Of a stretch of DNA of 47,279 nt, positions 3,607 to 46,971 are shown piece by piece. The notes under the pieces were generated by a model. That model searched no databases, was not told the origin of the DNA, and saw nothing but the letters and a program-made list of their open reading frames with translations. This DNA is from Chitinophagaceae bacterium (lineage in GTDB: Bacteria; Bacteroidota; Bacteroidia; Cytophagales; JASGCU01). Made by a program: the position numbers and the translations under genes. Within the stretch, counting starts at the first letter, position 1; the number at the start of each line of letters is the position of its first letter. The stretch spans positions 3,667 through 50,945 of the forward strand of contig JASGCU010000008.1 of the NCBI GenBank assembly GCA_030053935.1, written 5' to 3'.

Positions 3607-4323
3607 TTATTTTTGAAGTTGATTTAAATAGAGAGCGATAGTATTTTCTAATCCCAAATACAAGGCATCACAGATAAGCGCATGCCCTATAGAAACTTCC
3701 TGTATAAAAGGTATCTCAGTTACTAAAAAATGAAGGTTTTGCAGATTCAAATCATGCCCCGCATTGATTTGAATTCCTAATTTCTTTGCCATTTCCGATG
3801 CAACTTTATAAGGTTTTATAGCATTGTATTTATCTTGGATAAAAAAATGAGCATATCTTTCTGTATATAGCTCTATTCTATCTGTTCCAATCGCCGCAGC
3901 TCCTTTTACCATTGTTTCTAAGGGATCTACAAAGAGGGAAGTTCTGATTTTTGCATCTTTCAAACGAGTAATGATAGGAATTAAAAACTCTTTATTCTCA
4001 AGAGTATCCCAACCTGCATTGGAAGTAATAGCATCGGGGGGGTCAGGTACCAATGTCACCTGATGGGGCTTTACTTGTAGCACCAAATCCAAAAATCTCT
4101 CACTCGGATACCCTTCAATATTAAATTCAATCCTCGTATGTTTTTGTAATTCTAACACATCAGAATACCGAATATGCCTTTCATCTGGACGGGGATGCAC
4201 AGTAATACCATCTGCTCCAAATCTTTCACAATCTCTGGCTACTGCTATGAGGTCAGGATTATTTCCCCCTCTTGCATTTCTTAAAGTTGCTATTTTATTG
4301 ATATTTACACTGAGCTTAGTCAT
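3607..4323 (-). CDS. pdxJ: Pyridoxine 5'-phosphate synthase
   Basis: PdxJ condenses 1-deoxy-D-xylulose 5-phosphate with 3-amino-2-oxopropyl phosphate to give pyridoxine 5'-phosphate, the ring-closing step of the DXP-dependent vitamin B6 route. At 238 residues it is full length for this TIM-barrel family. Signature segments are [15 protein letters not shown] at the N-terminus, [15 protein letters not shown] (residues 37-51, His43), EFNIEGYP with Glu70, and INAGHDLN late in the chain. The start gives a standard N-terminus with no extension. First gene of the run pdxJ / esterase / aguB. Confidence 0.96.
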
Positions 4324-9130: not shown

Positions 9131-10435
9131 TTAATTTCCAAAATCGTCAAATCTAATATTTTCTTTAGGAACTCCCATATCATCTAACATTTTGAGAACA
9201 GCACTATTCATCATTGGTGGTCCGCACAGGTAGTATTCTATGTCCTCTACTTCATTGTGTTTAGATAGATAATTATCATACAATACTTTATGTATAAATC
9301 CTATATAACCATCGCCTGTTGTATCGTCTAATGATTTTTTTATTTTCCAGTTATCTTCTTCTAATGGTTCAGACAATCCTATATAGAATTTAAAATGAGG
9401 AAATTCTTTTTCTATTTTTCTAAAATGTTCTGTATAGAATAGTTCTCTTTTAGATCTTCCACCGTACCAATAAGATACTTTCCTTTTTGTTTTTTCTGTA
9501 TGAAATAGGTGAAATATATGTGAACGAAGTGGTGCCATTCCTGCTCCTCCACCTACATATACCATTTCTCTTTGTGTTGGTTGTATAAAAAATTCTCCAT
9601 ACGGACCTGATATATCTACTAAATCTCCTGGTTTGCGAGAAAAGATATAAGAAGAGCATATTCCCGGATTTACACCTTTCCAATTATTTGTTGCTCTATC
9701 CCAAGGCGGAGTGTTTATTCTGATATTGAGCATTATTTTATTCCCTTCAGCGGGATGATTTGCCATAGAATACGCTCTAAAAAGAGGTTCTTTGTTTGCC
9801 ATTTTTAAATCCCACATTTTAAATTTATCCCAATCAGATTGGTAGATTTTTGAATCGTGTTTTAAATCGGGATGAGGAGTAATGTCTATGTTTTTAAAAT
9901 CTACATAAGTAGGAGGAACGTCTATTTGTATATATCCTCCCGATTCAAATTCTAAATGTTCATTTTCAGGGAGTTTTACTACAAATTCTTTAATAAATGT
10001 AGAGACATTATAATTAGAGACAACTTCGCATTTCCATTTTTTTATTCCAAAAATTTCTTCAGGAATTTCTATATTGAGGTCATTTTTTACTTTTACTTGG
10101 CAGGCAAGTCGCATATGATTTTTTTGTTCAGATCTGCTGAGATGTCCTTGTTCTGTAGGAAGTATATCGCCCCCTCCGTCTAATACTTTACATCTGCACA
10201 TAGCACAGGTTCCTCCTCCTCCGCATGCGGAAGGCAAGAATATTTTTTGATTTCCTAATGCAGATAGTAAGCTAGACCCTGCTGGCACTACTATTGCTTC
10301 TTCTTTTTTCCCATTGATTATAATTTTTACATTTCCTTGTTGTACTAAGTTCGCATGGGCTACTAATAACAATCCTATTAATAAAAGTATGGTTATTGTA
10401 AAAGATAAAATAGAGGTTATTATAATAAAAATCAT
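9131..10435 (-). CDS. nqrF: Na+-translocating NADH:quinone reductase subunit F
   Basis: 434 residues, slightly longer than the Vibrio protein. NqrF takes electrons from NADH through FAD to a 2Fe-2S cluster and starts the Na+-pumping chain. One N-terminal membrane helix (residues 1-27) is followed by a ferredoxin domain with ligands Cys71, Cys77, Cys80 and Cys112, then an FNR-like domain with the flavin motif RAYS (220-223) and the NADH motif [12 protein letters not shown] (295-306). It is last in the minus-strand run GNAT / yicC / nqrF, 22 bp after yicC. It is separated from nqrBCDE, which lie on the other strand starting at 16861. In most genomes nqrF closes the nqrABCDEF operon, so this arrangement is rearranged. 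Confidence 0.97.
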
Positions 10436-16860: not shown

Positions 16861-18057
16861 ATGAACCTATTAAAAAACATTTTCCATAAGTTTAAACCGC
16901 ATTTTGAAAAAGGAGGAAAATATGAAAAATATTATTACCTTTTTGAAGCGATAGAGAGTTTTACTTTTTCTCCTGCAACAGTTACTGGAAAAAAAGGAGC
17001 TCATGTGAGAGACGCTATAAATCTAAAACGCCTTATGATGACAGTAGTGATAGCAATGCTTCCATGTACATTTTTTGGAATGTGGAATGTAGGGCATCAA
17101 CATACTTTAGCTACAGGATTTTTCCTCTCAGAAATAGAAAAATTTTACTTGGGAGTACAAATTGTTCTCCCCATTATTTTAGTATCTTATACCGCAGGAG
17201 GAATCGTAGAGGTAGTATTTGCCATTATACGAAAACATCCCATCAATGAGGGTTTTTTAGTAACAGGATTACTCATCCCCTTAGTAATGCCTCCAACAGT
17301 CCCTTTATGGCAAGTAGCTTTGGCTACAATCTTTGCAGTAGTTCTTGCAAAAGAAGCATTTGGCGGAACAGGTATGAACGTAGTGAACGTAGCTTTAGTA
17401 GCAAGAGCATTTTTATATTTCGCCTACCCATCACAACTTTCAGGTGAAGTATGGACTTACTTAGGAGACCAGCAAACAGTAGTAGGATATTCAGGAGCCA
17501 CTCCGCTTGCAATCGCTGCTACCGCTGTAGGAAATAACCAATCTCTTCCTGTAATCTCTCTCTTTGATAATACATGGATATATAACTTGTATTCTCTTAA
17601 AAATCTATTTATAGGAGATATTCCAGGTTCCATAGGGGAAACTTCTACTCTCATGTGCCTTATAGGTGCTTTTATTTTAATAGCAACGGGTGTAGGAAGT
17701 TGGAAAATTATAGCGAGTGTATTTTTGGGTGCATATAGCATGGGACTCATTTTCAATGGTATAGGAAGTAACGAATTTATGCTATTACCCGCTCATTATC
17801 ATTTAGTTATGGGAGGATTAGCATTCGGTGCTGTTTTTATGGCAACTGACCCTGTTACAGCGGCACAAACAGAAATAGGAAAATATTTTTATGGTTTTTT
17901 CATAGGATTATTTACCGTTCTTATACGTGTATTAAATCCCGCATACCCCGAAGGAATTATGATGGCAATACTTCTTATGAACATATTTGCACCACTTATA
18001 GATTATTTTGTTATTAGTATTCATAAAAAAAGAAGATTACAACATGCAACAGTCTAG
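16861..18057 (+). CDS. nqrB: Na+-translocating NADH:quinone reductase subunit B
   Basis: 398 residues, close to the family length of about 410. NqrB is the largest membrane subunit, carries covalent FMN and riboflavin and forms the main Na+ path. The FMN-attachment motif SGAT is visible at 211-214 (GYSGATPLA, Thr214). Multiple membrane helices, including TFFGMWNVGHQ and GFLVTGLLIPLVMPP, match the family. It opens the run nqrB-C-D-E. nqrA, which normally precedes it, is absent: the 126 bp upstream are non-coding and then a TPR gene follows. Confidence 0.98.
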   Translation: MNLLKNIFHKFKPHFEKGGKYEKYYYLFEAIESFTFSPATVTGKKGAHVRDAINLKRLMMTVVIAMLPCTFFGMWNVGHQHTLATGFFLSEIEKFYLGVQIVLPIILVSYTAGGIVEVVFAIIRKHPINEGFLVTGLLIPLVMPPTVPLWQVALATIFAVVLAKEAFGGTGMNVVNVALVARAFLYFAYPSQLSGEVWTYLGDQQTVVGYSGATPLAIAATAVGNNQSLPVISLFDNTWIYNLYSLKNLFIGDIPGSIGETSTLMCLIGAFILIATGVGSWKIIASVFLGAYSMGLIFNGIGSNEFMLLPAHYHLVMGGLAFGAVFMATDPVTAAQTEIGKYFYGFFIGLFTVLIRVLNPAYPEGIMMAILLMNIFAPLIDYFVISIHKKRRLQHATV

Positions 18058-18753: not shown

Positions 18754-19425
18754 ATGAACACAGAAGTTTTAGATTCACCAAAAGTAATAGAAAACAAGTC
18801 AGAACCTTTATTTTCTAAAAAAAACAAAAAACTCATTACCAACCCATTAGATTTAGATAACCCCGTAACAGTACAGATATTAGGTATTTGTTCATCCCTT
18901 GCTGTTACTACACAGATGAAACCCGCAATAGTGATGTCCATAGGATTAACTATTGTTACCGCTTCTTCTAATTTCGCTATCTCTCTCATTAGAAATACTA
19001 TTCCATCCCGAATACGTATAATAGTGCAACTCGCTATAGTATCTCTTTGGGTAATATTAGTAGACCAAGTTTTAAAAGCATACGTGTATGATGTTTCCAA
19101 ACAATTATCTGTTTTTGTAGGATTGATAATTACCAATTGTATAGTTATGGGACGTTTAGAAGCATACGCAATGGCAAATAAACCATGGCCTTCCTTTTTA
19201 GATGGAATAGGAAATGGTTTAGGATATGGGATTATTCTCATCGCAGTAGCATTTTGTAGAGAGCTATTAGGAGCAGGTTCTCTTTTTGGATTTAAGGTTT
19301 TTCAAACATTAGGAATTCCTTACCAAGGAAACGGACTACTCCTTCTTCCCGCGGGAGCATGTTTTGTAATAGGTATTATTATTTGGATTCAAAGATATAT
19401 CAACGGTTATAGAGAAAAACATTAA
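18754..19425 (+). CDS. nqrD: Na+-translocating NADH:quinone reductase subunit D
   Basis: 223 residues, six-helix membrane subunit. It pairs with NqrE around an intramembrane iron centre, and the expected cysteines are present at Cys46 (LGICSSLA) and Cys129 (ITNCIVMGR). The conserved loops EAYAMA and [16 protein letters not shown] are intact. It has a hydrophilic N-terminal extension of roughly 15-20 residues compared with the Vibrio protein. The start is 2 bp after the nqrC stop. Confidence 0.97.
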
Positions 19426-29309: not shown

Positions 29310-30788
29310 TTACATTGCAATTCCTACAAAAACATAAAAAATAAAAGCAATAAGAGCAGATATAAGGGCGTATGGCATCTGTGTTTTGACGTGGTCTATA
29401 TGATCACACGCAGATGCCATAGAGCTTATAAGAGTTGTATCTGAAATAGGTGAGCAGTGATCTCCAAAAACCCCACCACCTAAAACAGCCGCTACCACTA
29501 TATGTATATTTATGCCTAAGGAATTTGCTAAAGGGACTGCTATAGGTATCATAATGGCAAAAGTTCCCCAAGAAGTTCCTGTAGCAAAGGCAATTACACT
29601 CCCTACTCCAAAAATTATTGCAGGTAAAAATGCAGGAGAAATCCAGCTTTTCGTTATTTCCGCTACATAGATTCCCGTTCCTAATTCTTTACATACATTT
29701 CCTATGGTGAATGCTAATACCATCAATAATGCCATAGATATCATACCTCCCATTCCTTTAAAAGAAAGGTCTATCATCTCTTGGAAAGACATTATTTTTT
29801 GAAAGAGAGAGAGTATTACGGAGATTCCAATTGCTACGATAACAGCATATAAAACGGATGCGGAACCTGAACCATAAGAAATAATATCGAAAATAGAAAG
29901 AGAGGAAACTGCATTAGCTGGGGCATTTTTCATTCCCGTATAGAATAAAAATAGTGGCATAGAGATTACCATAACGAAGAGAGGCACTATCATATTATAT
30001 GCTTTATGAGTTTTTTTTTCTTGTGGAGTAATAATGGTTATTTCTTCAGATACCAATGGAGTAGATCCGTCTGCTATAATTTTTCCTTCTATTTTTACTC
30101 TTCGTTCTGCTTTTTTCATAGAAAGAATATCTTTATTTGTTATCACGACAATAACTAACATACAGAGAGTTATTATGGGATAAAAATTATAGATTATGGA
30201 TGTATAGAGTATTTCGAAGGGGTTTGTAAGTCCTTGTGCTATAAGTAAACTCATAATAAATGCCCCCCATGCATTAAATGGGATGAGGATACAGGAAGGC
30301 GCTGAGGTACTATCGCAGATATATGCTAATTTTTCTCGGGATATTTTTAATTTATCGAAGAGGGGGCGGAATAAAGTTCCTACCGTAAGAATAGAGATGT
30401 TTGACTCCACAAAAATAAGCATCCCTACTAAGACAGCAAATAATCTAACATACAAAGATTTTTTGTGTTCATCTTTTGATTTGATGGTATCTAATTTTTT
30501 ATTTATAAACAGGATAAATCCATTTACACCACCGGAGCGTTGGATATAAGCAATAAGAACACCTATCAAGAGAGTAAAGATAACTGTGCGTGTATTACCT
30601 GCATCTTTAAAAGTGTCTACTATTTTTTCTATGGAATCTAGAGTGCCTTGGAGGATATTTCCTTGGTGAATAATAATAAACCCTAAGAAGATTCCTACAA
30701 ACAATGACACAAAGACCTGCCTCGTCCATATCGCTAAAATAATCGCTACAATCGGTGGAACTACCGACCAAAAACTATAATGTTCCAT
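29310..30788 (-). CDS. nhaC: NhaC-family Na+/H+ antiporter
   Basis: 492 residues, a polytopic membrane protein with about 11-12 helices. Family segments are VFVSLFVGIFLGF, VGMLIFVESNISILTVGTLFRPL, STSAPSCILIPFNAWG, ATGTSWGTFAIMIPIAVPLA and GGGVFGDHCSPISDTTLISSMAS near the C-terminus. NhaC proteins exchange Na+ for H+ (some exchange malate/lactate). A hydrophilic loop lies around 225-265. Stand-alone gene. Together with the Na+-pumping NQR it suggests a sodium-based energy circuit, but the transport direction and substrate are inferred. Confidence 0.9.
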   Translation of the reverse strand: MEHYSFWSVVPPIVAIILAIWTRQVFVSLFVGIFLGFIIIHQGNILQGTLDSIEKIVDTFKDAGNTRTVIFTLLIGVLIAYIQRSGGVNGFILFINKKLDTIKSKDEHKKSLYVRLFAVLVGMLIFVESNISILTVGTLFRPLFDKLKISREKLAYICDSTSAPSCILIPFNAWGAFIMSLLIAQGLTNPFEILYTSIIYNFYPIITLCMLVIVVITNKDILSMKKAERRVKIEGKIIADGSTPLVSEEITIITPQEKKTHKAYNMIVPLFVMVISMPLFLFYTGMKNAPANAVSSLSIFDIISYGSGSASVLYAVIVAIGISVILSLFQKIMSFQEMIDLSFKGMGGMISMALLMVLAFTIGNVCKELGTGIYVAEITKSWISPAFLPAIIFGVGSVIAFATGTSWGTFAIMIPIAVPLANSLGINIHIVVAAVLGGGVFGDHCSPISDTTLISSMASACDHIDHVKTQMPYALISALIAFIFYVFVGIAM

Positions 30789-31802: not shown

Positions 31803-32783
31803 ATGAATCGCTTATACCCATTGAAATTTAACCCCATATATAAAGAAAAGATATGGGGAGGAGAAAAAATAAAAAATATATTAAAAAAAGATGTTCCATC
31901 TATGCTCCATTGCGGAGAAAGCTGGGAAATATCAGCAATAGAAGGGAATGTTTCTACGGTTTTAGAAGGTAAGCTCCAAGGTAAAGATTTAAAAACGATC
32001 ATAATTCTCTATAAAGAGCAATTATTAGGGAAAAAAATATATAAAAAATATGGAGATGAGTTCCCTCTCCTCATAAAATTTATAGATGCAACGCAAGACC
32101 TTTCTTTACAGGTGCATCCCAATGATGAACTTGCTAAAAAGAGGCACAATGGATCAGGAAAATCAGAAATGTGGTATATAATGCAGGCGGATACCGATGC
32201 TAAAATAGTTACGGGCTTTAATAGAACGATGGATAAGGAAAAGTTTTTAGATTACTTTGAGAGGGGAAAAATAATGAGCGTCTTAAATACAGAACCCGTA
32301 CAAGAGGGTGACGTATTTTATTTACCCGCCGGGAGAATACACTATATTGGTGCGGGTTGTTTTCTTATAGAAATACAACAATCCTCTGATTATACATACA
32401 GAATTTATGATTTTGATAGAACAGATGAACATGGGAATAAAAGAGAACTGCATTTAGAAGAAGCATTAGAGGCGATGGATTACCAAACATATCCAACCTA
32501 TAAAACCCTCTACCAAAATAAACGAAATGAACCTATCCATCTTTTGAAAAGCTCTTATTTTACGGTGAATAAAATTCACAGTGACCAAAATATAGATAGA
32601 GATTATCATTATTTAGATAGTTTTGTGATATATGTATGTATGAGTGGTGATGGAAATCTTATTTGGGATGGAGGGGAACTTTATTTTAAAACAGGAGACG
32701 TGATACTTCTACCCGCTTGTATAAAAAAAATAACCTTAGAAACCACATGGGGGTTTTCTTTTTTGGAAACCTATATACAATAA
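31803..32783 (+). CDS. manA: Mannose-6-phosphate isomerase, class I
   Basis: 326 residues, cupin fold. It interconverts mannose-6-phosphate and fructose-6-phosphate and feeds GDP-mannose synthesis. Signature pieces are NPIYKEKIWGG (10-20), GESWEIS, SLQVHPND with zinc ligand His105, KSEMWYIM with Glu122, and PAGRIHYIGAG. The length matches the short bacterial type. First of the plus-strand series manA / lipB / response regulator / porZ. Confidence 0.94.
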   Translation: MNRLYPLKFNPIYKEKIWGGEKIKNILKKDVPSMLHCGESWEISAIEGNVSTVLEGKLQGKDLKTIIILYKEQLLGKKIYKKYGDEFPLLIKFIDATQDLSLQVHPNDELAKKRHNGSGKSEMWYIMQADTDAKIVTGFNRTMDKEKFLDYFERGKIMSVLNTEPVQEGDVFYLPAGRIHYIGAGCFLIEIQQSSDYTYRIYDFDRTDEHGNKRELHLEEALEAMDYQTYPTYKTLYQNKRNEPIHLLKSSYFTVNKIHSDQNIDRDYHYLDSFVIYVCMSGDGNLIWDGGELYFKTGDVILLPACIKKITLETTWGFSFLETYIQ

Positions 32784-32836: not shown

Positions 32837-33541
32837 ATGCAACGCAATAAAAAAATACAAGTAATCGATTTAGGATGTATTGATTACAAAGAAGCTTGGG
32901 ATTTTCAAGAGAAAAAACTGAAAGAAATAACCGAGCAAAAAATAAAAAATAGAGACATGGATGAAAATCAAAAAGAACGGACTCCTAATTATTTACTATT
33001 CTGCTCACATCCCAATGTATATACATTAGGCACCAGCGGAAAGATAGAACATTTAAAAATACCTGAAAGTGCTTTACAAGAAAAAAATATAAGTTTTTAT
33101 AAAACAAATAGAGGAGGAGATATTACCTTTCACGGTGAAGGACAAATAGTAGTATATCCCATTTTAGATTTAGATAATTTTTTTACAGACATTCATAAAT
33201 ATATGAGAACTTTGGAAGAGTCGGTTATTAAAACACTGAAAGAATTTAACATTACTTCGGGAAGAATGGACAAATTTACAGGTGTTTGGACAGAACCAGA
33301 AAACCCTCTCAACAGTAAAAAAATATGTGCTATGGGAGTAAAACTCAGCAGATGGGTAACGATGCATGGGCTTGCCCTAAATGTAAATACTCATCTCGAG
33401 TATTTTCAACACATAATCCCTTGCGGTATTACTCATAGAGAAGTAACCTCTATGAAACAAGAACTGGGATATGAACTCAATATAATGGAAGTGCAACAAA
33501 GATTAGAAAAAAACATTATGTTTTTTTTTCAAACCGAATAA
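32837..33541 (+). CDS. lipB: Octanoyl-[acyl-carrier-protein]:protein N-octanoyltransferase
   Basis: 234 residues from the ATG at 32837. A frame open from 32717 overlaps the end of manA and adds 40 unlikely residues. LipB moves octanoyl from ACP onto lipoyl domains of 2-oxoacid dehydrogenases and GcvH. Motifs are RGGDITFHGEGQIVVYP (92-108), KICAMGVKLSRWVTMHGLALN with the conserved Lys162, and the nucleophile Cys196 in IIPCGI. lipA is not in the window. Confidence 0.94.
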   Translation: MQRNKKIQVIDLGCIDYKEAWDFQEKKLKEITEQKIKNRDMDENQKERTPNYLLFCSHPNVYTLGTSGKIEHLKIPESALQEKNISFYKTNRGGDITFHGEGQIVVYPILDLDNFFTDIHKYMRTLEESVIKTLKEFNITSGRMDKFTGVWTEPENPLNSKKICAMGVKLSRWVTMHGLALNVNTHLEYFQHIIPCGITHREVTSMKQELGYELNIMEVQQRLEKNIMFFFQTE

Positions 33542-33571: not shown

Positions 33572-34303
33572 ATGAACGTAGAAGTAAAAAAAATCAATAT
33601 ATTGATAATAGAACAAGATAAAGAATTAGGGGGTAGTTTATCCCATTTTTTTCAAGAGAAAAATATGAACGTTACAATAGAACTCTCTGTGGGATTGCAG
33701 ATTCCCTCAATACTAAAAAACAACCATTTCGATATTATTTTAGTAGGGATCCCTTTGGAAGGAACGGATTTGGATACACTCATACAAAAAATACACAAGT
33801 CAAAAGAGCAAAAAACAACTCCTTTTATTTTATTAAGCCCTAAAGATACAAAAGACGACATAATCAAAGGACTAGAATTAGGGGCTGACGACTATATAAT
33901 AAAACCATACTCTATAGAGGAGGTATCTGCAAGAGTAAGAGCGGTTTTAAGACGATGTACCATTTCGGGAAGAATATTCAAGGAAAACGATGATGATTTA
34001 ATAAATTTTCCAGTAGGGGAATATATTCTTGATACCCAATTACAGATACTTCTGTACACGAAAACAAAAGAAAAAATACAACTTACCAACAAAGAAAACC
34101 TCATACTAAAATTTTTATGCCAAAACATAAATAGAAACATAGATAGAAAAGATATGCTTGCAAGAATATGGCGGAACGACAACCACCAATCATCAAGAAG
34201 TTTGGATGTCTTTATAACAAAAATTAGAAAATACCTCAAACACGATCCTAATGTAGCCATCATAAATAATCACAGTATTGGACATAAATTAGTTATAAAA
34301 TAA
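33572..34303 (+). CDS. RprY/OmpR-type response regulator lacking the phospho-acceptor Asp
   Basis: 243 residues: a receiver domain (about 8-125) and a winged-helix DNA-binding domain (about 150-243). The winged helix, with SLDVFITKIRKYLKHDPNV and HSIGHKLV, is close in pattern to Bacteroidota RprY. In the receiver, the strand that normally ends in Asp (as in VLDVMMP) reads FDIILVGIPLEG, so Gly59 replaces the phosphorylated Asp. The acidic pocket is IIEQDKE, with one Asp replaced by Gln, while the Ser (ILLSPK) and Lys (IIKPYS) switch residues remain. It is therefore probably not activated by conventional phosphorylation. No kinase gene adjoins. It ends 4 bp before porZ. Confidence 0.9.
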   Translation: MNVEVKKINILIIEQDKELGGSLSHFFQEKNMNVTIELSVGLQIPSILKNNHFDIILVGIPLEGTDLDTLIQKIHKSKEQKTTPFILLSPKDTKDDIIKGLELGADDYIIKPYSIEEVSARVRAVLRRCTISGRIFKENDDDLINFPVGEYILDTQLQILLYTKTKEKIQLTNKENLILKFLCQNINRNIDRKDMLARIWRNDNHQSSRSLDVFITKIRKYLKHDPNVAIINNHSIGHKLVIK

Positions 34304-34307
34304 TACT

Positions 34308-36536
34308 ATGCAATTATTTTTTTTTGTTTTTATACCAACATTCCTTTTTTTGTACACCGCATTGGGACAATCACAAACCTCCGCAATAGGAGAATGGCAA
34401 ACACATTACGACTTTAATCAATCTATCCATATAGAATACTCCCATAATCAAATAATAAGTAATGCATACCACGGTATCATTCTGTATGACGTGCTTTCTC
34501 AAAAAACAAACAATATCACAAAAAAAAATGGACTATCAGACTCTTATATAACATCTATCAACGTTTTGGATAATGTTCTTATTATAGGGTATGAAAGCGG
34601 AAACGTAGATTTTTTTTATACTCAACAAAATATTGAGAATTTTAGGGCTATTTTTGATTACCAAACCGAACCTTCAAAAAAAATAAATAGTATTTTTACA
34701 AACGAAACGTCTCTCTATTTTGCAACAGATTTTGGAATGGTAGAAATAGATAGAAAAACCCATGGATTAAAAAACACTTATAAAGAACTGGGAGAAAAAG
34801 GAGAAAAAATACCCGTACTGGCAGGAACTGTCCACTCAGATACTCTCTACCTTATTACTAACGAAGGACTCATATCTGCCTCTCTCAAAGATGGCTCCAA
34901 TCCTTTAGATTACAGGGTATGGAAACGAAACCCTGCTATGAAAAAAAAATTCCATTCTCTCACTATTTTTGATAATAAAATATATGTGGCAGGTGATACC
35001 ATAGGAGTTTTTTTCTATCAAAATGGAATAAATTGGAAAAAAGAACCTCGTTTTCCTAACACCATACAATTTCTCAAAACAACCGAAAACCTTTTATTTG
35101 CGGGAGCATACAATACTTATTATACCATCAACAAACAAAATGAATTATCCGTAAATACTATACAAGAAGATACTATAAAAGATATTGTAGAGGTCAATCG
35201 AAAGATTTTTTTTTCCTCCCCCTCAAATGGATTAACTGCAATAACAGAAAACAATACAAACGCTTTTGTATCTCAAAGAACTATCTTACCAAATATATGG
35301 AAATTTCATATTTCTGAAACAGGAACATTATTTTCTGTAAACGGTGCTTACAATGACGATATCCAACCTACCAATACACATGGGAAATTCTCCATTTTTG
35401 AAAATGGAAAATGGACATATTATGATTCTACTCTCACTACATTACCAAAAAATATTATACAAGTGACCGAAAATCAAGTCACAGGGGAAAGATGGATTTT
35501 TTCATTTCAAAAAGGGATATACGAAATCAAAAATGCTCAAGTATATCCCATTGTCATACCCGAAAATATCAAAAATCCCAATACACACCTAGCTATAACC
35601 TCTGCTATTGTAGATTCTTACGGCAATTGGATAATATCTACGTATGAAAACAATATCTATATAAAACGAGATACAAAAAAACAGTGGAGTGTTCTCAATT
35701 TTTTACCAAATGATAACATACACTCTGAAAAAATGTTGCTCTCTAAAAACGGATATATATGGGGAATAAACACATCTCGAATTATAGCTATAGATATAGA
35801 AAACCAAAGATCTCGTACATTTAAAAATAACACTCATATAGAATTGCCAAAATACGGCATACAAGACATAGCATTAGATGAAAACAATACTAACAGATAC
35901 AAAAACAAAATATACATAGTCGCCTCCCAAAAACTTCTCGCCGCTTCGGATATAGAGAGTGTATTTGAAAATACACCTATTTCTTTTACACCTGCTTCAT
36001 GGAACAATACAATAGAAATAGATCAATTTTCTACATATTCCATAGCAATAGACGCAGGCAATAAAAAATGGATAGGCACAGAAAACGGTGTATACCTTAT
36101 AGATGAAAACAATAGAGAGCAATTTTTACATTTTCAAACCACCAATTCTCCTCTTCTATCAAATAATGTATCTCAAATAGAAATAAATAATAACACAGGA
36201 GAAGTATTTTTTCTTTGCGATGGTCGTCTTGCGTCATACCGATCCGATGCTATAAGTCCCCAAAAAATACTTTCCAGTGTAAAAATATTTCCTAATCCCG
36301 TTCCTCCTCATTTCGAAGGAGTAGTAAGCATATCAAACCTCACAGAATCTGCTACCATCAAAATTACAGATAATACCGGGCGTTTGATATATGAAACTAT
36401 ATCCATAGGAGGTAATGTTTCTTGGAATAGAAAAGATATACAGAATAATACCGTAAAACCAGGGGTATATTTTGTATTCGTATCCTCACAAGATGAGAGT
36501 ACCGTACTCGTTGGCAAAATTGCTGTTATAGAATGA
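34308..36536 (+). CDS. porZ: PorZ-like type IX secretion protein with C-terminal sorting domain
   Basis: 742 residues. A signal peptide (to about 20, ending ALGQ) is followed by IGEWQTHYDFNQ, then beta-propeller repeats of the two-component-regulator type (NGLSDSYITSI, IIGYESGNVDFFY, WIGTENGVYLID) over about 25-650. The C-terminal sorting domain is from about 655, with SVKIFPNPVPP and a closing GVYFVFVSSQDESTVLVGKI. PorZ is a surface component of the type IX attachment complex that delivers anionic LPS to the sortase-like PorU. The four-bp gap to the regulator suggests joint transcription. A run of nine T spans codons 3-6. Confidence 0.82.
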   Translation: MQLFFFVFIPTFLFLYTALGQSQTSAIGEWQTHYDFNQSIHIEYSHNQIISNAYHGIILYDVLSQKTNNITKKNGLSDSYITSINVLDNVLIIGYESGNVDFFYTQQNIENFRAIFDYQTEPSKKINSIFTNETSLYFATDFGMVEIDRKTHGLKNTYKELGEKGEKIPVLAGTVHSDTLYLITNEGLISASLKDGSNPLDYRVWKRNPAMKKKFHSLTIFDNKIYVAGDTIGVFFYQNGINWKKEPRFPNTIQFLKTTENLLFAGAYNTYYTINKQNELSVNTIQEDTIKDIVEVNRKIFFSSPSNGLTAITENNTNAFVSQRTILPNIWKFHISETGTLFSVNGAYNDDIQPTNTHGKFSIFENGKWTYYDSTLTTLPKNIIQVTENQVTGERWIFSFQKGIYEIKNAQVYPIVIPENIKNPNTHLAITSAIVDSYGNWIISTYENNIYIKRDTKKQWSVLNFLPNDNIHSEKMLLSKNGYIWGINTSRIIAIDIENQRSRTFKNNTHIELPKYGIQDIALDENNTNRYKNKIYIVASQKLLAASDIESVFENTPISFTPASWNNTIEIDQFSTYSIAIDAGNKKWIGTENGVYLIDENNREQFLHFQTTNSPLLSNNVSQIEINNNTGEVFFLCDGRLASYRSDAISPQKILSSVKIFPNPVPPHFEGVVSISNLTESATIKITDNTGRLIYETISIGGNVSWNRKDIQNNTVKPGVYFVFVSSQDESTVLVGKIAVIE

Positions 36537-44271: not shown

Positions 44272-46971
44272 ATGAGAAGACGGAATATATCTATGGTTTT
44301 TATAGGAATAATATTTATTGTTGCAGGCGGAACATGGTATTATTGTAATCAAAATAATACTCAAAATGAATGGGATTTTGTTCCTAAAAATGCTTTTGTA
44401 GCGTATAAAAAACAAAATACACCAGCAGAATCAAGCATGCTATCTGATATACTGTCCGATACCTCGCTTAACAAAACCACATCCGAAAATAATATTCATT
44501 TTCTAAAAACGATTTATTCTTTTTTTGTAGACATTCCCGTTCTTATATCTTTCCATTATAATAATGATATTCTGTTTGATATAATGATTGTTTTTTCTGT
44601 TTCTCAGAAAGAGAGCGAAAAAAAAATATCTACTTTTTTGCAGGCGATCAAACAAAAAAAAGTTATCTCCCCCCATGAAAGAAAATTTCGAACTTACATT
44701 ATTAAAGAAATACAAGGAAGAGATAAGAACCATCCTTTTTTTTATAGTTATAAAGACGGTTTTTTTATAGGAAGTTTTGAATCATATTTAGTAGAAGAAG
44801 CACTTATTGTACATGAAAAAAAAGAGAGGTATATATATTCGCTTTCTCATAGTCCCTTACCCCCTGAGGACTATGTAATTATTAATACAAAAGAATTGCA
44901 AAATATATTTTCACATATATCTTTGAAAGACGAAAAAAAAATAGGTTTTACCCATCTATTTGAGCATCATATCCTATTGGAAAAAATGGAACATAATTCT
45001 CTTTTTACGGGATATATGTTTTTTGAAAAAGAAAATTATGCTCATTGGAACGGATTTAAAAATAATGTATCCACCCCACTTACCCTTCAAAAACTTATAC
45101 CACAGAGAAGTACCTCATTTCTTATTTTTAACTTTACATCAGGTGAACAATGGGGAATGCAAATGGAAGAATTTTGGAAAAATACTGCTCCTGATATACT
45201 TAAGAAACAAAAAGAATTAGAAGCACTTTATAAAATAGATTTAGAAGATATCCATAAAGAAATACAACATCAAGTGGCATTCATCTCTTTTTCTTCCAAT
45301 AATTCAACAACAACCCCCCTCGGACTTATTATAGAAGCAAAAAATAATTTCTTTTTCTCCAATAGTTTTGATAAGTTTAAAACTACTGATGAAGAACTTT
45401 ATCGGAACTTCACTCTCAAAAAAATAGAAGTAGCAGAACTCCCCGCCTTGTTATTCGGAGAAAAATTGAAAGGATTCCCTACCCTTCACTATACCTATTA
45501 CGATAATTATCTACTGGCGGCTAATAATATACTCACTCTCAAAGTAATGATAGAGGACATATCACAAGATAGAACCTTCAGCAACACTTACTCTTCCCAA
45601 AATATGCTCCCAAAAAATCTTGCTTCCGCAAATGTCCATTATTTTGTCAATATACCCCAAATATATGGAGAAATAAAAAACAAAATACAACAAAAATGGA
45701 AACAAAAATTCGATGCATTGTTTTCTCTTTTCTTTCAAAATACCGAAGCAATGTCTTTGCAAATGGATAATATTCAAGAAAAAAGTTACACAGTGCTTTC
45801 TCTTTTCTCAAAAGATACTGTAAAAAAAGAAGGAACAACAGACGCTACAGATACCTTTCAAATTCACTTTTCTGCTCCTCTCATAACTGCACCTACTCCC
45901 TTTCAAAGTACCGATGGAAGCATAGAATTTTTGACACAAGATTCTACATACATACTCCATAGCATATCAGATAATTATCAGGTGCTGTGGCAAGATTCTC
46001 TGGATAGTGAGGTAACAAGCCCTTTTTTTGAAGTAAATCATTTGCCCAATGAAAAAAAACAGTATGCTTTTACTACTCATAAATATATATATATCATAGA
46101 AAAAAACGGAACCTTTGTGCCACCATTCCCTATAAACGTTTCATATAACAACGATATAGAATATTTTCAGGTGATACAAAAAGATGCAGAATACCAATAT
46201 ATAGTGGTAGATAAAAGCGGATTAATTTTTTGCATCACACGAGATGGAAAAAATCAGCAAGATTGGACACCGCAAAAACTCCCTTATAAAATGAGTGCTG
46301 CTCCCGCAGGAGTTTTTGTAGAAAACAACCTCTATTTAGTCGCTACCACTATCACAGGGGAAATCCATATTTTGAACCAAAATAAAATAAAAATAAAAGG
46401 ATTCCCGATTTTTCTCAACACCACCATATCAAATCCTATTCATATCACAGATGGACAAAATGCAAGTAACACTTTTTTCTCTCTGCTAACAGATAACGGC
46501 ATACTCGTATCTGCAAATATGGAAGGAAAGATAGCATATCACAAAAATTTTTATAGAGGAACAAAACAGAATCGTTTTCAAACCATCACTGATAAAGTAA
46601 ATAATACTCTTCTGTATGCGAAAATAGAAAAAGACAATGTGACCCTTTTAGACCAACAAGAAAAAGCGGTTTTTGAAGCAAAACTACCCTTCTCTCAGGG
46701 TAATAATATGCATATTCGCTATTTCCATTTCCATACAGATATGGGTTTTCTAACCCTCAAAAACAAAGAAGAGAATATATCATATCTTATTCATCAAAAT
46801 ACAGGACTATTTTATAAATATGCTATTGAATCAAACACCGATATAGAGATTTTTGCTCAAAATAATGATGAATACATGGAATATTTTATGATATATGCAA
46901 AGGGAAGAGATGTGATTCTTCAAAAAATTCATCTCAAGGACTTTAGCAAAGACATTATAAAAAAGGAATAA
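44272..46971 (+). CDS. Large membrane-anchored protein with C-terminal propeller-like half
   Basis: 899 residues, unknown. One N-terminal membrane helix (ISMVFIGIIFIVAGGTWYYC, 6-25), then a long domain to about 530 with DUF3352-like character (substrate-free, secreted, alternating alpha/beta). A second half follows with repeats such as QYAFTTHKYIYIIEKNGTFV followed by PPFPI, and LVATTITGEIHILNQNKIKI followed by KGFPI. The Asn/Gly-x-hydrophobic-x-x-FPI pattern resembles the blades of PQQ- or WD-like beta-propellers. Probably faces the periplasm. No catalytic motif is visible. 12 bp after the phosphorylase gene, so probably co-transcribed. Confidence 0.72.
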   Translation: MRRRNISMVFIGIIFIVAGGTWYYCNQNNTQNEWDFVPKNAFVAYKKQNTPAESSMLSDILSDTSLNKTTSENNIHFLKTIYSFFVDIPVLISFHYNNDILFDIMIVFSVSQKESEKKISTFLQAIKQKKVISPHERKFRTYIIKEIQGRDKNHPFFYSYKDGFFIGSFESYLVEEALIVHEKKERYIYSLSHSPLPPEDYVIINTKELQNIFSHISLKDEKKIGFTHLFEHHILLEKMEHNSLFTGYMFFEKENYAHWNGFKNNVSTPLTLQKLIPQRSTSFLIFNFTSGEQWGMQMEEFWKNTAPDILKKQKELEALYKIDLEDIHKEIQHQVAFISFSSNNSTTTPLGLIIEAKNNFFFSNSFDKFKTTDEELYRNFTLKKIEVAELPALLFGEKLKGFPTLHYTYYDNYLLAANNILTLKVMIEDISQDRTFSNTYSSQNMLPKNLASANVHYFVNIPQIYGEIKNKIQQKWKQKFDALFSLFFQNTEAMSLQMDNIQEKSYTVLSLFSKDTVKKEGTTDATDTFQIHFSAPLITAPTPFQSTDGSIEFLTQDSTYILHSISDNYQVLWQDSLDSEVTSPFFEVNHLPNEKKQYAFTTHKYIYIIEKNGTFVPPFPINVSYNNDIEYFQVIQKDAEYQYIVVDKSGLIFCITRDGKNQQDWTPQKLPYKMSAAPAGVFVENNLYLVATTITGEIHILNQNKIKIKGFPIFLNTTISNPIHITDGQNASNTFFSLLTDNGILVSANMEGKIAYHKNFYRGTKQNRFQTITDKVNNTLLYAKIEKDNVTLLDQQEKAVFEAKLPFSQGNNMHIRYFHFHTDMGFLTLKNKEENISYLIHQNTGLFYKYAIESNTDIEIFAQNNDEYMEYFMIYAKGRDVILQKIHLKDFSKDIIKKE

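Follow-up and report, generated by a model that had tools for sequence, protein, structure and literature searches.

An RprY-family response regulator with a pseudo-receiver domain beside porZ in a Chitinophagaceae bacterium

The regulator gene and its receiver active site

The window analysed here, a stretch of 47,279 nucleotides from a Chitinophagaceae bacterium (assembly GCA_030053935.1, contig JASGCU010000008.1), contains a same-strand run that is headed by a mannose-6-phosphate isomerase (PMI) gene and leads through a lipB-like gene and a response regulator gene to porZ (Table 1). The frame of the regulator is unbroken, with 243 codons open, and is separated from porZ by the four bases TACT. 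This spacing had been given in the initial annotation, and the identity of porZ named there was upheld by the T9SS_PorZ model. From their strand and the 30-bp spacing, lipB and the regulator are probably expressed from one common transcript. A promoter scan returned 28 sites against 30.5 expected, which is no excess over chance, and the same scan returned 5 terminator-like sites against 2.5 expected, a result no better than chance.

Table 1. Positions in the window of the regulator, its domains, its active-site residues and the adjacent genes
Feature	Position	Strand	Basis
Mannose-6-phosphate isomerase, heads the same-strand run	31803..32783	+	Pfam PMI_typeI_cat
lipB-like lipoyl transferase, 30 bp 5' of the regulator	32837..33541	+	Pfam LplA-B_cat
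RprY-family OmpR/PhoB-type response regulator with pseudo-receiver, 243 aa	33572..34303	+	ORF, Pfam and NCBIfam
Receiver (pseudo-receiver) domain, residues 10-122	33599..33937	+	Pfam Response_reg, 56.2 bits (cut-off 30.2)
Gln15 (CAA); metal-binding Asp in 69/69 homologues	33614..33616	+	
Gly59 (GGG) at the phosphorylatable-Asp position; Asp in 69/69 homologues	33746..33748	+	
Ser89, switch residue; Thr in 67/68 and Ser in 1/68 alignable homologues	33836..33838	+	
Lys111, conserved switch Lys retained	33902..33904	+	
Winged-helix DNA-binding domain, residues 167-239	34070..34288	+	Pfam Trans_reg_C, 51.5 bits (cut-off 26.2)
porZ, 742 aa, 4 bp 3' of the regulator	34308..36536	+	NCBIfam T9SS_PorZ, 375.6 bits (cut-off 260)

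The receiver had initially been described as having Gly in place of the phospho-acceptor Asp and Gln in the acidic pocket, with the Lys and Ser switch residues kept. Reading the codons confirmed Gly59, Gln15, Ser89 and Lys111, but the acidic pocket has been lost in part only, with Glu14 and Asp16 still in place. Asp is found at both altered positions in all 68 alignable rows and in L126, which was read by eye. These 69 homologues comprise 51 best matches (29 from genomes of a first search, 21 from a set of 390 genomes, and L031) and 18 further sequences, made up of 11 second copies and 7 that are the top match in their genome. Because the change from an Asp codon to GGG takes two base changes, and because the same loop is also altered at M61P, P63E, G67L and F68D, a single-base error fails as the cause of Gly59, and a sequencing error at this codon is unlikely. 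These many linked changes also argue against a recent single mutation.

The domain is recognised as a receiver by Pfam yet carries both D59G and D15Q, as is characteristic of a pseudo-receiver. The Pro at D+4 and the Gly at D+8 are gone and the T+1 residue is altered, and these are among the trends listed for pseudo-receivers (PMC12632262; here, as throughout, papers are cited from extracts of their text). The share of Asp-less domains is put at about 4% for receivers as a whole and at 2% for OmpR-type architectures (PMC12632262, PMC4395418), and pseudo-receiver regulators are described as common, their on/off switching being called a mystery (PMC12632262). Asp-less receiver regulators are therefore already known as a kind, to which an Asp-less case in the RprY family can be added; no report of an Asp-less RprY was found in the extracts of the literature searched.

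Another possibility is that the receiver responds to a signal other than phosphate, be it a ligand, lysine acetylation or a protein partner. In Porphyromonas gingivalis, where RprX has been lost, RprY is modulated by acetylation, which reduces its DNA binding (PMC6032018), and our regulator retains Tyr108 together with Ser89, a pair of the Tyr and Ser/Thr kind needed for Y-T coupling (PMC12632262). However, neither a ligand pocket nor an acetyltransferase neighbour was identified, the downstream gene being porZ and not pat, and we regard a replacement signal of this sort as unlikely.

Family placement and the distribution of changes

The first search covered 58 relatives, all of which belong to the same order but to other families, although the search favours the genus and family; no genome of the same family was present among them, nor among the listed rows of the 390-genome set. 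A match at 1e-10 was obtained in 53 of the 59 genomes, our own included, and the best 29 loci show 34-42% identity by local alignment and 33-40% over the full alignment. In the wider set, 104 of the 390 genomes (again including our own) match at 1e-38, and sequences were read for 40 of the other 103. A scan for related loci contributed a single full-length relative (L031); the six others that it gave were weaker and were left out. The initial annotation had allowed that Gly59 could be a local mutation if close relatives kept the Asp, and that the linkage with porZ might not be conserved. The Asp is kept in 69 of 69 homologues and the linkage is not conserved in the loci examined, but the homologues come from the same order only, which answers the matter by half.

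The regulator had been called RprY-like, and RprY (NF051850) indeed ranked first among the 59 NCBIfam models matched, with 177.1 bits; the next, Bacteroidetes PhoB, scored 138.2, which is 39 bits lower. The score is below the curated RprY cut-off of 370 bits, as are those of the eight best-match relatives (265.7-344.6 bits) and of four members of a sister group of RprY (246.8-268.9 bits), and for each of these 12 homologues, the sister-group members among them, RprY again ranked first. This sister group is found within the order, in some genomes together with RprY and in others without it, and some of its members have their own kinase. The regulator had also been set apart from PorX, which in this genome is a separate gene (779.6 bits); the T9SS_RR_PorX model was not among the 25 families listed of the 59 that the regulator matched.

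In the best tree of the DNA-binding domain, built without L104 and L126, the RprY set forms a group that excludes the regulator (support 96/91), and the regulator joins the sister group with weak support (61/56). Holding it with RprY was not rejected by the AU test (p 0.417). Of 16 sites that discriminate between the two groups, 7 carry the RprY residue, 3 that of the sister group and 6 neither, and the log2 odds were -5.4 for the receiver (towards RprY) and +11.5 for the DNA-binding part (towards the sister group), both small beside the values of clear members. For these diagnostic sites L104, L126, L098, L105, L094 and L025 were excluded and L028 was placed in the sister group. As the trees, the AU test and the diagnostic sites do not settle the placement, we assign the regulator to the RprY family, within which it would be either RprY itself or a member of the sister group, and do not call it RprY.

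To locate the changes, a column was treated as conserved when 80% or more of 30 relatives agreed in it, and each relative was left out in turn to obtain the ranges. At the phosphorylation site the regulator keeps 11 of 25 conserved columns, where the relatives keep 21-24 of 24-25. For the alpha4-beta5-alpha5 dimer face the figure is 18 of 24 (relatives 18-23 of 23-24), and for the DNA-binding part it is 28 of 40 (relatives 28-39 of 39-40). Only the phosphorylation site is outside the range of the relatives, the other two being at its low edge, and the beta3-alpha3 loop fares worst, with 2 of its 9 conserved columns retained. Comparison of the site with the rest gave a Fisher p of 0.026, which is indicative only, since the segments were drawn after the changes were seen, with borders taken from general knowledge of receivers. 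Mean identities follow the same pattern: the receiver, at 0.36 to the relatives, is a clear outlier from the 0.56-0.67 that they show among themselves, and the DNA-binding domain, at 0.46, is at the low edge of 0.46-0.68. At the level of sequence, the erosion is thus local to the phosphorylation site. An AlphaFold model based on two aligned rows was of poor quality (mean pLDDT 46.5) and was set aside.

Asp106, Asp107, Glu117 and Arg121, at positions that form dimer salt bridges in PhoB, are also retained. The DNA-binding domain, described initially as intact, is recognisable by its Pfam score and retains the recognition region DVFITKIRKYL, but 12 of its 40 conserved columns are changed, including Y205H, F206Q and N207S near the recognition helix.

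Such changes near the recognition helix would also be expected if the regulator were becoming a pseudogene, with its kinase lost, its receiver decaying and its DNA-binding domain still unbroken. The end branch of the regulator is the second longest in the full tree, at 5.31 changes per column (L092, a partial match, and L103, with a 10-base filler, were left out of this tree, and L126 is mis-framed in it), and a close relative that could show constraint is missing. However, a frame of 243 codons has stayed open at 33-40% identity to the relatives, change is concentrated at the phosphorylation site, the recognition region is retained, and this is the sole OmpR-type regulator found in the genome. 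Decay into a pseudogene is therefore a doubtful account, slightly more so than a replacement signal.

Two-component genes and the probable absence of an RprX-type kinase

The assembly (2.55 Mb in 156 contigs, 97.7% complete) contains two receivers, PorX and the regulator, and a single Trans_reg_C match at E 0.01, which is the regulator itself, making it the only OmpR-type regulator found. One HisKA kinase exceeded the cut-off, and a further, weak match did not reach it. The kinase over the cut-off has an HQLGTPLSSL box, which is of another kind than that of RprX-type kinases, and by elimination, and from the likeness of this box to one of a relative (L134), it is taken for a putative PorY. A kinase hidden among the other five HATPase matches was considered and rejected, as these were read as GyrB, MutL, HtpG, a second GyrB/ParE-type protein and a non-kinase ATPase. 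A query with the RprX-type kinase of a relative (L012) gave no match in the genome, in a search that had no positive control. Measured against the RprX/RprY pair, the genome therefore lacks a match to the kinase and has Gly59 in place of the phosphorylatable Asp. Among the 58 relatives, 50 have from 11 to at least 64 receivers, 64 being the scoring limit, and 8 have 0 to 5, all of the latter with genomes of 1.1-1.6 Mb.

An RprX-type box was found directly 5' of the regulator in 22 of 30 relatives' loci and in the flank of 15 of 21 loci of a second set, counts that rest on a narrow motif by which some kinases may be missed. Ten loci of one family (f2: L002, L004, L005, L006, L108, L109, L113, L118, L119 with a shortened flank, and L123) have an RprY-type regulator that keeps its Asp, with no RprX-type box in the flank fetched. 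The lack of an adjacent kinase does not by itself bring about loss of the Asp, because these ten loci have kept it.

We consider it probable that this RprY-family regulator has outlived its lost kinase and, like CosR and HP1043, is active without being phosphorylated. The sensor kinase RprX would have been lost while the regulator stayed in the genome, and the phosphorylation pocket, with no kinase acting on it, would then have eroded under less constraint than the regions for dimerisation and DNA binding. The regulator is predicted to form a phosphorylation-independent dimer that binds its targets, and its output could be set by the amount of protein, perhaps from a PMI-lipB-regulator-porZ transcript, as has been proposed for HP1043 and CosR. 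Its retention would be explained by the finding that rprX/rprY is the only two-component pair called essential in Bacteroides fragilis (PMC4072883).

RprY of B. fragilis and P. gingivalis has the same two-domain layout. The P. gingivalis protein is without its kinase, as seems to be the case here, but has a putative phospho-acceptor, D55, and is phosphorylated on Phos-tag gels (PMC6032018). With its kinase probably lost and its Asp lost as well, our regulator would be one step beyond P. gingivalis RprY.

Close parallels also come from another phylum. CosR of Campylobacter jejuni is an OmpR-type regulator in which the losses of Asp and kinase are paired, as they would be in our regulator: Asp and the kinase CosS are both missing in thermotolerant species and both present in other campylobacters, and the C. 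jejuni protein may act without phosphate (PMC3938529). It is essential and has been studied there, whereas the role of our regulator would follow from comparison. HP1043 (HsrA) of Helicobacter pylori is likewise an orphan of the OmpR family with a highly degenerate receiver, and forms a dimer without phosphate (PMC5253667); a CosS orthologue is found in H. pullorum and is absent from H. pylori (PMC3938529). The dimer and the DNA sites have been shown for HP1043, whereas our regulator is known from its sequence. ChxR of Chlamydia trachomatis, from a different lineage, belongs to the OmpR/PhoB subfamily and dispenses with phosphorylation (PMC3960148), a likeness drawn from its description.

If confirmed, the regulator would place a joint loss of kinase and Asp in another phylum, beside CosR and HP1043, and in a family whose kinase-regulator pair is the one called essential in B. 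fragilis (PMC4072883). The genome would be a simple one in which to address the question, since one HisKA kinase and one OmpR-type regulator were found in it, and two receivers in all.

Proximity to porZ and other genes of the window

The initial annotation had suggested a tie between the regulator and type IX secretion, and a dedicated T9SS regulator, its position before porZ serving the control of secretion, could be envisaged from the 4-bp distance and from the secretion genes of this genome (SprA, 2354 bits; PorX; 42 sorting-domain matches). However, the porZ loci of the relatives do not bear this out. Of 51 relatives with a porZ match, 30 were examined on the upstream side only, and in none did the flank of about 1.1-1.4 kb contain a gene homologous to the regulator, to lipB or to the isomerase. 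Conversely, flanks of 1.5 kb around the top-scoring homologues from 29 other genomes, and of 6 kb around that of L031, contained no porZ match; in 22 of 30 relatives the neighbour of the regulator is an RprX-type kinase. The genome also has the usual regulator, PorX, a separate protein of 518 aa encoded on contig C65. A conserved regulator-porZ linkage was therefore rejected, dedicated control of secretion is highly improbable, and the place of the regulator beside porZ looks local, with no conserved partnership.

Our preferred reading, a regulator acting without phosphate after loss of its kinase, could be extended to that of an essential two-component regulator turned into a constitutive, phosphorylation-free master regulator in a two-component-poor Bacteroidota lineage, its dose being tied to porZ and lipB through a common transcript. 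The capacity for envelope secretion and the RprY regulon would then rise and fall together. This extension is speculative and we think it improbable, if less so than dedicated control of secretion.

In one relative (L132, G018:C11:699000-708000), porZ is followed by a second gene, a stand-alone CheY-like frame (by reading) and then, on the opposite strand and some 1.3 kb past porZ, a sister-group regulator with its own kinase.

P. gingivalis RprY has been linked to NQR and sodium (PMC3646045), and two species of Porphyromonas have sodium exchangers next to RprX/RprY (PMC6032018). The window contains NQR-type subunits (NQR2_RnfD_RnfE and Rnf-Nqr, at 16861-18057 and 18754-19425), an NqrF-like 2Fe-2S/FAD/NAD protein (9131-10435) and a Na+/H+ antiporter (29310-30788), about 2.8 kb from the regulator. 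No RprY binding motif was found in the extracts of the literature searched; the targets known for the P. gingivalis protein include NQR and stress genes.

Two further frames were observed. One, at 44272-46971 in the window, encodes 899 aa and is without a Pfam match at 1e-5. The other lies outside the window on contig C1 of the same genome (G000), where a T9SS sorting-domain match of 30.1 bits (about 3669-3896, minus strand) is located in a stop-free frame of 14,741 aa, or about 44 kb, a candidate giant secreted protein.
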